Positions 32,599-44,366 of a DNA stretch of 64,000 bases are shown one piece after another (positions within the stretch are counted from its first letter, which is position 1; each line of letters opens with the position of its first letter). Source of the stretch: Methanosarcina sp. Lineage in GTDB: Archaea; Halobacteriota; Methanosarcinia; Methanosarcinales; Methanosarcinaceae. The notes beneath the pieces are model-generated. The model saw nothing but the letters and a program-made list of their open reading frames with translations. It did no database searches and was not told the DNA's origin. The translations under genes were made by a program, and so were the position numbers. The stretch is taken from the NCBI RefSeq assembly GCF_028693135.1, contig NZ_JAQUVZ010000001.1:186001-250000 (forward strand). Direction: 5' to 3'.

Positions 32599-32903
32599 GT
32601 CAACTACCCCTCCCTAAAACCTTCGCCTAACGGCTCAGGTTTTTGAGGAAGGGGCTTGTCTAACAAGCTCTGGTTGACCAGATCACCGATTCGGAGTAAT
32701 GGAAAATCGGTAAACGATAGGAAAGAAATAGTTACCCTTGAATGCCGCCTCAGTTTAAGGCTCTAAGGATGCCGGTTAAACAGTCCTGAGAGGTAGGGAC
32801 AGTGCTTGCATCGTTAAACCTTTCCATATCAGATCGAGAGGAAGACGGATTCCGGAATTGACTCCACAATTCGGATACGCATAACTCTTCGGAGGAAAAC
32901 TAT
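32599..32903 (+). ncRNA. HEARO / IscB omega RNA
   Basis: A structured region directly upstream of iscB. It starts GTCAACTACCCCTCCC, has a long hairpin (AAGGGGCTTG side at about 32651), GGTTGACCAGATCACC, paired GATTCGG/AAATCGG arms, CCCTTGAATGCCGCC and the hallmark GGCTCTAAGGATGCCGGTTA followed by AACAGTCCTGAGAGG, which I recognise as the core of HEARO RNAs (HNH endonuclease-associated RNA). Such RNAs guide IscB to its DNA target. The 5' end would carry the guide outside GTCAAC. The RNA looks intact although its protein gene is frameshifted. Confidence 0.85.
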
Positions 32904-34186
32904 ATGTTAGTTTTCGTAATCAATCAAAACAAAAAACCACTAATGCCCTGTAAACCTTCAAAAGCCAGAAAGCTACTGCAAGCAGGCAAGGCAAAAGTGG
33001 TCCGAAATACTCCATTCACAATCAAGTTACTTTTCGGAAGCAGTGGTTATACTCAACCTGTAATTGCAGGGATGGATACCGGCTCTAAGGTCGTAGGCTG
33101 TGCAGCTATTGCTAACGGAAAAGTGTTGTATCAATCCGAAATTTACCTGAGAGAAAACGTTTCGAAAAAGATGGAACAACGGAAGATGTACCGGAGAACC
33201 AGAAGAGATAGAAAAACAAGATATAGACCTGCAAGATTTGATAACCGGGGAAATTCAAGGAGAGAAGGAAGATTGGCTCCTTCCATCAAAAGCAAACTTG
33301 AAGCTCATTTCCGGGAAAAGATGTTTGTGGAATCCCTGCTTCCTGTAACCGGGTGGAAGGTAGAACTTGCTTCCTTTGATATTCACAAAATAAAAAATCC
33401 GGAGGTTTCCGGGGTTGGGTATCAGGAAGGGGACCTTAAAGGCTTCTACAATGTCAAAGCTTACGTTCTGGATCGGGACGGCTACACCTGCCAGCACTGC
33501 AGGGGAAAGTCAAAGGATTCCCGGCTACATTGCCATCATATCGTTTTCAGGTCACAGAAGGGACAGATGCTCCTGAAAACCTGATTACGCTTTGTGAAAC
33601 CTGTCACAAAGCCCTGCACAATGGAGAATTCAAGCTTTCAGGGAAAAAGTCAAAAACAAAACATGCAACTGAAATCGGGATCCTCAAATCCCAAATCCGG
33701 AAATCCGGCTGGAGTTTTGCAGAGACTTTCGGGTACGAAACAAAGTACAGGAGAGAGCAGGTCTTGAAGTTGTTAAAAACACATTACTTTGATGCTGTTG
33801 CTATCTGTTGCAGGGACGATCAGAAAGTAGAGGTAGAAGATTCGGTTTTTCTAAAAAGAAACGTTTCTGCGGGAGATTATCAGCAAACAAAAGGGAAGAG
33901 ATCAGAGAAGAAAATACCTACCGGAAAGCTGTTTGGGCTCAGGAAATTTGATATTGTAAAAACGGAAAACGGGATCGGGGTAGTCTGGGGAAAACGGTCA
34001 TCCGGGTATTTTTCAATCTCAGATATATTCGGAAATAAAATTTCAGATAGTGTTAATGTTAAGAAAAAATGCAGGAGACTGAGTGCGAGGAGTACAACAT
34101 TAGTTCAGATGGTACAGATGACACATTCTTCCCCCACCTGCCATTTCCGGCAAGCCGGAACTGTCGAGGAAGGGGTCTCCTGCTGA
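32904..34186 (+). pseudogene. iscB: IscB RNA-guided nuclease, frameshifted within HNH
   Basis: Frame one gives the PLMP domain (NQNKKPLMPCKPSKARKLL), RuvC-I (IAGMDTGSKVVGCAA with the catalytic Asp), the arginine-rich bridge helix (YRRTRRDRKTRYRPARFDNR), RuvC-II (VELASFDIHKI) and the first half of HNH (CQHCRGK, LHCHHIVFRS). Near 33557-33561 the frame shifts. Frame two (from 33530) gives APENLITLCETCHKAL and RuvC-III (THYFDAVAICC). One inserted or lost base joins them. All three RuvC motifs and the HNH Cys/His residues are otherwise present. Joined, the protein is about 430 residues, the normal IscB length. It is probably a recent pseudogene; ribosomal frameshifting is possible but unsupported. 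Confidence 0.88.
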
Positions 34187-34358
34187 GGTAAGATGAAAAA
34201 AGAAGCCTGAAAAAAAGGGGCCTTCACAATAAAAAGAGTATATAATAGATAAAAACAGAAAATCTCGTCTCTTCTGTTTTAATTCTATTATTAAAGAGTT
34301 CTGTTTTACTTCTATTTTTAAAGAGTTCTGTTTTAACCAATTCTGCTTCTCAACTATC

Positions 34359-42167: not shown

Positions 42168-42897
42168 TTGCCTGCGAGGTTTTGCAGTTATTTTAATGCT
42201 TGGATATCATTTTCTCTATGACCTGGATTTTTTTGGGCTTGCTGATATTGAGTTAAGGTCCGGCACGTTTCTCTATATTGGAAGAGGGGCAGCTTTCCTT
42301 TTTATTCTGATATCCGGAGCCGCTCTTTCCATAAGCCGTTCAAGAGCTCTTGCCAATGGGACATCAGGAAAGCCTGCGGAAAATTTTTCAAAATACTTTA
42401 AAAGAGGGCTGAGACTTTTTTCAATGGGAATGATTATTACAGCGATAACCTGGATTTTTTTCCCCGGGCAGTATATTCTCTTTGGAATCCTTCACTTTTT
42501 CGGGGTCTCAGCATTGCTTGCCTACCCGTTCCTGAAGTACGGAAAAGAAAACCTGTTCTTCTGCCTGTTTTTTGGCGTTGTGGGGTTATACCTCAAAGAC
42601 AGGACTTTCGAGTTTTCTGCTCTTCTCTGGTTGGGATTCAGGCCCGAAGGTTTCATAACCCTGGATTATTTTCCTCTGTTCCCCTGGTTTGGGGTACTTC
42701 TTACAGGAATTTTCCTTGGAAACTCTCTTTATAAAGGTGGGAATAGACAGTTTAAAGTCCCTGAAGCCGATAACTTCTTGCTTCAGAAACTCGTTTCATG
42801 GGTCGGGAAACGTTCCCTGTTCATATATTTTATCCACCAGCCTCTCTTCCTCGGGCTTTTGCTCCTGAGTGGGCTCCTTGACCCTGGGATGCTCTGA
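42133..42897 (+). CDS. DUF1624 / heparan-alpha-glucosaminide N-acetyltransferase-like membrane protein
   Basis: A 254-residue protein with about seven or eight membrane helices. WEIDCLRGFAVILMLGYHFL is the typical start of DUF1624 (HGSNAT-like) acyltransferases, with the conserved Asp-x-Leu-Arg-Gly and His residues; FILISGAALSIS, LFGILHFFGVSALLAYPFL and FIYFIHQPL follow. It may transfer acetyl groups to surface sugars across the membrane. ATG at 42133 is 7 nt after CGGAGAA and begins the conserved region; the longer frame is made of the 15-bp repeat. Confidence 0.85.
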   Translation: MGRHSNRFWEIDCLRGFAVILMLGYHFLYDLDFFGLADIELRSGTFLYIGRGAAFLFILISGAALSISRSRALANGTSGKPAENFSKYFKRGLRLFSMGMIITAITWIFFPGQYILFGILHFFGVSALLAYPFLKYGKENLFFCLFFGVVGLYLKDRTFEFSALLWLGFRPEGFITLDYFPLFPWFGVLLTGIFLGNSLYKGGNRQFKVPEADNFLLQKLVSWVGKRSLFIYFIHQPLFLGLLLLSGLLDPGML

Positions 42898-43282
42898 ATA
42901 GATTGATCTAAATATAGTGACCTCAACAGATTGATCTAAATATAGTGACCTGAATATATTGACTTAAAGATATTTATCTAAAATATATTGATCTCAAAGA
43001 GGCCCTCAAAATAGTGATATAAATATATTCAAAGTGCATGATTATTCCGTAAAAAACTGTTTTTTCGTATGTTTTTTGGCACAAAGAGAATTAACAGAAA
43101 GAGCTAAACCTGTGGTTTTAAAACCTGTGGTTTTATATAGTATATAGAATACCTGATTTTGCATTATTATCCGATATTAATAATACCATATGTAACTACT
43201 AACCGGCAATATTATTCATATAAACGGCAAGATTTTCATATCTGATTTACCCACCCTTATTGCAATACTGAGAAACCTTAAT
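42898..43282. other. Intergenic with 23-bp direct repeat
   Basis: GATTGATCTAAATATAGTGA plus CCT occurs at 42901-42923 and 42929-42951, with further degenerate ATATATTGA units to about 43030. No gene seen. The orphan HEARO-like RNA follows. Confidence 0.7.
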
Positions 43283-43455
43283 GTCAACTTATCACGCTAA
43301 CGCGATGAGCTTGTTATAGGCTCTCGTTGACCACCTTACCTTCTTTATAAACTGTGATACTGGTTTGCACTGCCCCTTGAAAAATCATCAGCGCGATTTA
43401 CCCGTGTATACGGTTGAACCCTTAAGGATCAACCGGTAAAGAGTTAAAAAGTGCG
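43283..43455 (+). ncRNA. Orphan HEARO-like RNA without iscB
   Basis: The segment shares ordered blocks with the IscB RNA at 32599: GTCAACT at its 5' end, GAGCTTGT, CGTTGACCACCTTACC (against GGTTGACCAGATCACC), CCCTTGAA, and CTTAAGGATCAACCGGTAAA (against CTAAGGATGCCGGTTAAA). It is shorter and its variable hairpins differ, including a GGTTGA/TCAACC stem. The gene just downstream is a small membrane protein, not IscB. It may be a decayed element end, or a HEARO-like RNA kept for another role, perhaps as a 5' leader of that gene. The similarity is read by eye and not aligned. Confidence 0.55.
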
Positions 43456-43481
43456 AAACCAAAAAGAAAATGGAGAAAAGA

Positions 43482-43829
43482 ATGTATCTGGAAATTGCAA
43501 TGTTTGCCTATTTTGTAACCCTCTTCCTAACGATTCGAGATATTCGGATTTTTAAAAGGACGGGTTATTTATCCTACAGGAAAGGTGCCCTCAGGGGGCT
43601 TGCAGCTTCTTCCCTGATCCTCATAGGGGCAATCAGCATTGATGCAAAGCCAGATCTTGGTCTGCTTATTGTTTTATTTGGGCTTATTGTCAACCGTAAA
43701 GGGGCAAGAGAGCCAGTTTTTACTAATGCAGGAACAATTGACCGTTTTCTTGGGAAAACAGATTATGTAAAGAGCAAAACAGTGAAAAAAATAGATGAAA
43801 AGGCAGGAATAAGAAAGGGAGTTAATTAA
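43482..43829 (+). CDS. Small hypothetical membrane protein
   Basis: 115 residues. Helix 1 (IAMFAYFVTLFLTI), a basic loop (RDIRIFKRTGYLSYRKG), helix 2 (LAASSLILIGAISI), helix 3 (LGLLIVLFGLIV) and a basic C-terminal tail. ATG at 43482 is 6 nt after GGAG; the ATG at 43470 overlaps that site. No family recognised. A direct duplication of about 27 bp (AAGGCAGGAATAAGAAAGGG...) spans its stop codon and repeats just downstream. It lies directly after the HEARO-like RNA. Confidence 0.65.
   Translation: MYLEIAMFAYFVTLFLTIRDIRIFKRTGYLSYRKGALRGLAASSLILIGAISIDAKPDLGLLIVLFGLIVNRKGAREPVFTNAGTIDRFLGKTDYVKSKTVKKIDEKAGIRKGVN

Positions 43830-44366
<537 letters not shown>

Follow-up and report, generated by a model that had tools for sequence, protein, structure and literature searches.

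A probable left-end remnant of an IscB-type transposable element in the leader of a small membrane-protein gene of Methanosarcina

Introduction

The closest described relatives of the locus considered here are the HEARO RNAs (Rfam RF02033), which are the omegaRNAs of IscB, and the elements of Methanosarcina that carry IscB (ISC elements), which belong to the IS200/IS605 superfamily. In the IscB structure the core of the omegaRNA comprises a nexus stem, a nexus pseudoknot and terminal hairpins, disruption of the pseudoknot abolished IscB-mediated genome editing in human cells, and OgeuIscB recognizes a target-adjacent motif, NNRR, that is read 3' of the guide match (PMC9640706).

The DNA analysed here, referred to as the window, is a 64-kb stretch of a Methanosarcina genome in which exactly one HEARO RNA is found with Rfam, at 32599-32846. 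The preliminary description proposed a further, orphan HEARO-like RNA of 173 nt at 43283-43455. Like a HEARO RNA, this segment has a GTCAAC 5' start and a P1 stem (GTCAAC/GTTGAC) with two enclosed hairpins; unlike one, it covers no more than the initial ~71 of ~203 nt and is without the core, the pseudoknot, a covariance-model match and IscB. It shares with two 1,582-bp IscB elements (L046 and L047) a left end at 89% identity, an exact boundary, a GTG-type target motif on the 3' side and insertion without target duplication, whereas its 71 bp lack their IscB, omegaRNA core and right-end hairpin. The same genome has elements of 335-341 bp (e.g. L016 and L026) that are likewise non-coding derivatives of IscB elements and follow the same insertion rule, but they are multicopy and each retains both ends and the whole omegaRNA, whereas the 71-bp segment is truncated and present once. 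The features discussed below are as follows.

32599..34192, + strand: reference element, with a HEARO RNA at 32599-32846 (RF02033, 119.3 bits), a frameshifted IscB gene from 32904 and ATGA as right flank at 34193
43283..43353, + strand: 71-bp insertion, left end of an IscB-type IS200/IS605 element and first ~71 nt of the omegaRNA/HEARO region, with the architecture of the HEARO 5' domain
43283..43331, + strand: stem P1 (GTCAAC/GTTGAC) around two hairpins, the HEARO guide-adaptor domain, still foldable (MFE -15 kcal/mol, z -3.0)
43354..43357, + strand: native GTGA, the target motif, immediately 3' of the insertion
43354..43481, + strand: native leader of the membrane-protein gene, including CCCTTGAA, TTAAGGAT and CCGGTAAA, with no HEARO part
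43482..43829, + strand: small membrane protein of 115 aa, conserved in the genus

Extent and source of the insertion

A BLASTN search of the genus placed the 5' part of the segment (43283 to ~43338) at two positions in the sister genome G008 (E = 2.3e-13, 89% identity over 56 nt) and its 3' part (from ~43354) in the leaders of the gene's orthologues in sister genomes. Both G008 positions are the left ends of complete elements, L046 and L047, which are 96% identical to one another and encode an intact IscB (NCBIfam guided_IscB, 431.7 bits) behind a 5' RNA with a full Rfam HEARO match (128 bits). Identity between the two begins exactly at GTCAAC, the insertion at 43283-43353 begins at the same nucleotide, and it has in this respect the sharply bounded left end of an IS200/IS605-type IscB element. 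When omegaRNAs from many related IscB elements are aligned to it, the insertion runs colinearly with their nt 1 to ~71. Among the 29 orthologous leaders found in the genus it is present in that of the window's genome and absent from the 28 others. When a degenerate left-end pattern was run against 112 genomes of the family, zero-mismatch matches were confined to the insertion and the two IscB elements (none for the reversed pattern); no further copy of the segment was found in its own genome, in plasmids or in viral contigs, and within the 112 genomes it lies outside its locus only as part of full IscB elements.

These comparisons reduce the extent of the feature to 71 bp in place of 173, since only the initial 71 nt are HEARO-derived and the remaining 3' part is native leader. 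The original proposal had rested on ordered blocks shared with the RNA at 32599, and of these GTCAACT, TTGACCA and CCCTTGAA do occur exactly in both 32599-32905 and 43283-43455, whereas GAGCTTGT, CTTACC, TTAAGGAT and CCGGTAAA have no exact match in the 32599 RNA. The three 3' blocks, CCCTTGAA, TTAAGGAT and CCGGTAAA, belong to the native leader, and the same stretches, with small changes, occur in the close relatives G008, G011 and G001, all of which are without the insertion; homology to the 32599 RNA across all 173 nt was rejected for this reason. A gappy alignment of the two segments scored above 500 of 500 shuffles, but under stricter scoring 6 of 500 shuffles, and likewise 11 of 702 other windows, did as well, such that the overall alignment beats chance only modestly and the direct likeness of 43283-43455 to the 32599 RNA appears weak. 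The suggestion that the segment might be a decayed element end has held up for its first 71 nt, through the BLASTN matches, the exact boundary and the alignment with relatives.

The reference element itself is probably non-autonomous, since the reading frame of its IscB gene (32904-34192) is shifted after ~225 codons. As a separate observation on the IscB elements, the proteins of L046 and L047 are ~89% identical to those of L084, L092 and L096, and their left- and right-end hairpins are clearly different (CTCACGCTAAAGC... versus CCGCCAATAAATTGGC...), a pattern that suggests an exchange of ends or the use of a different cognate transposase.

Insertion site and target motif

In the window's genome, 23 other HEARO-bearing elements, with or without IscB, start with GTCAAC, and the base that follows their right end is the first of GTGA in 22 cases and of GGGA in one. 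When their flanks were joined and compared with sister genomes, the empty sites (in L145-L170) proved to be contiguous, with no duplication of the target. The clearest of these, at 97% identity, already contains GTGAAAAATG, and GTGA is therefore target sequence that lies directly 3' of the insertion point. In a second element family of the same genome ATGA takes the position of GTGA. The 71-bp insertion obeys the same rule, with ...ACCTTAAT to its left and GTGATACTGG to its right; the orthologous empty sites are equal in total length to the joined flanks, one of them, in G025, reads TTGTGATAC, and no target base has been duplicated or lost. Insertion without target duplication beside a fixed 3' motif, as is typical of IscB elements, is thus found here as well. 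Since the motif that IscB reads lies on the 3' side of the guide match, these IscB proteins may also use RTGA as their target-adjacent motif.

Structure retained in the insertion

The pairs of P1 are kept in 13 of 13 aligned copies, one pair showing double changes from C-G to T-A, and the alignment and the folds of these copies agree on a 5' P1 stem with enclosed hairpins, as in HEARO. Homology to HEARO relatives ends at nt ~71, and the segment has no nexus stem, nexus pseudoknot or terminal hairpins; the next gene downstream encodes the 115-aa membrane protein in place of an IscB or IsrB. With permissive filters, the Rfam HEARO model gave no match anywhere in 42890-43900 up to E = 10, still less one of 83 bits or more, because the core of the RNA is missing.

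These findings bear directly on the preliminary proposal of a domesticated HEARO RNA that would serve as a leader or work in trans, in the latter case by guiding IscB. An intact P1 domain and the intact IscB genes elsewhere in the genome would be in keeping with such a role, but about two thirds of the RNA are gone, including a core of ~130 nt with the region that forms the nexus and the pseudoknot, the latter being indispensable for genome editing by IscB in human cells (PMC9640706), and the segment occurs upstream of the gene in only one of the 29 genomes. The segment would be unable to work as an omegaRNA because the RNA core is absent, and a guiding function is extremely improbable.

Origin of the 71-bp form

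The explanation that best fits these observations, to which we assign a probability of about 0.9, is that 43283-43353 preserves the left end of an IS200/IS605-type element with IscB, of a subtype that is intact in a sister genome; in the leader this remnant would most likely be neutral. The segment was inserted precisely, without target duplication, 5' of GTGA in the untranslated leader of the small membrane-protein gene. What remains is the terminal part with the P1 stem and two hairpins; IscB, the right-end hairpin and the core of the omegaRNA are gone. As a consequence of these losses it would neither guide IscB nor move by itself. The relic is probably inert, and probably immobile because the right-end hairpin of its parents (CTCACGCTAAAGCTGTGAG) is missing.

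Two observations sit less comfortably with this explanation. The P1 domain still folds well, which might give the hairpins some role in the leader, and the right junction is more precise than a random deletion would be expected to leave, so that the last ~18 nt could conceal some right-end sequence. The latter point leads to the alternative that the insertion is a minimal non-autonomous element (MITE) built of both ends, with nt 1 to ~53 from the left and ~18 nt from the right, and inserted by TnpA acting in trans. The two exact junctions with zero target loss are what such an element would leave, and CCTTACCTTC in its tail has a weak resemblance to the right end, CCCTTCCTTCGAATCA. The hairpin of intact relatives is nevertheless missing from that end, and the genome contains a single copy where a MITE is expected to be present as several mobile copies of a short unit. 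The tail is moreover closer to the continuation of a related omegaRNA, with which nt 54-71 align ungapped at 12 of 18 identities (shuffle p ~0.001), than to any right end, those of the parents included (p ~0.035). The better fit to the omegaRNA continuation leans toward a left-end origin of the last 18 nt and favours a left-end-only copy, and a two-ended element is unlikely. For the left-end remnant, the exactness of the right junction makes arrival as an already truncated copy likelier than random later deletion.

The downstream gene and its leader

The gene that follows encodes, as first described, a membrane protein of 115 residues when translated from the ATG at 43482, and one of 119 when translated from an alternative in-frame ATG at 43470. 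The protein has two to three hydrophobic stretches, occurs in 29 of 31 Methanosarcina genomes and matched no family in Pfam or NCBIfam. Two further features of this neighbourhood may be recorded in their own right. In the window a ~30-bp unit (AAGGCAGGAATAAGAAAGGGAGTTAATxA) is tandemly duplicated at 43801-43856, in the 3'-terminal part of the membrane-protein gene and across its stop codon. In G008 a full HEARO insertion (G008:C1:3913660-3913865) lies just downstream of the orthologous gene, which is in L010, and is independent of the upstream 71-bp insertion.

A structured regulatory leader, conserved in the genus and unrelated to HEARO, was also considered. The 200-nt leader folds somewhat better than its shuffles (z -2.3), but its best-folding part is the insertion itself, and genus-wide conservation is poor apart from the gene start. 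This candidate was rejected for its lack of conservation across the genus and is very unlikely; a regulatory RNA is not indicated, because the leader is otherwise poorly conserved. The arrival of the insertion could alternatively have altered expression of the gene, for example through TTTATAAA at the right end of the insert acting as a TATA box or through a hairpin in the 5' UTR. Alongside TTTATAAA itself, a likely native TATA box, TTTTATATA, is present upstream at ~43131; the match, however, is a short AT-rich motif within AT-rich DNA, and an effect on expression seems rather improbable.

HEARO RNAs without IscB in the same genome

The genuine orphan HEARO RNAs of this genome are full-length copies without IscB, and they lie elsewhere than at 43283. 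There are 45 HEARO RNAs above the gathering score, of which 12 adjoin an IscB gene and 33 do not, as judged from the positions of IscB genes and from tblastn around the copies over ~1.5-2 kb downstream; the loci without IscB are among L016-L045 and L175-L183 (G000, the window's genome). The L016 and L026 groups consist of precisely bounded elements, 335-341 bp long, that keep the omegaRNA and both ends but have lost everything between the ribosome-binding site and the last IscB codons, and these closely examined copies are deletion derivatives of IscB elements. Intact IscB genes, such as that at G000 C16:20780-22075, persist at other places in the genome. A second group of HEARO elements without IscB (L175, L179 and L183, at G000 C58:253064, C3:91015 and C58:114761) has ATGA on the 3' side of the insertion point. 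For at least three of these insertions the ATG is apparently the start codon of the downstream gene, with the element placed directly on it.

Ktedonobacter racemifer is reported to have stand-alone omegaRNAs. The closely examined Methanosarcina elements without IscB may act and move in trans. Only few HEARO nucleases have been found adjoining TnpA (PMC9755519), and with three Y1 transposase genes in the window's genome this makes movement in trans plausible. Taken from the sequences, a tentative and somewhat doubtful reading is that the genome holds a reduction series, from the IscB element (~1.59 kb) through the ORF-deleted form (335-341 bp) to the bare left end (71 bp), and that the many ORF-less copies could be stand-alone omegaRNAs which, acting in trans, lead a few intact IscB proteins to the empty sites of the copies themselves, with RTGA (mostly GTGA) as target-adjacent motif.

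Conclusions

The 71-bp segment by itself is a small transposon scar of little importance. The comparison of its junctions with those of related elements provides a rule for the insertion of IscB elements in Methanosarcina, namely that it is precise, occurs 5' of RTGA and entails no target duplication. In this genome most HEARO RNAs of full length lack a neighbouring IscB gene, and they offer a natural multi-copy system for the question of whether omegaRNAs act in trans. Were the reduction series with action in trans to be borne out, the ORF-less copies would be parasitic on IscB and the transposase alike.
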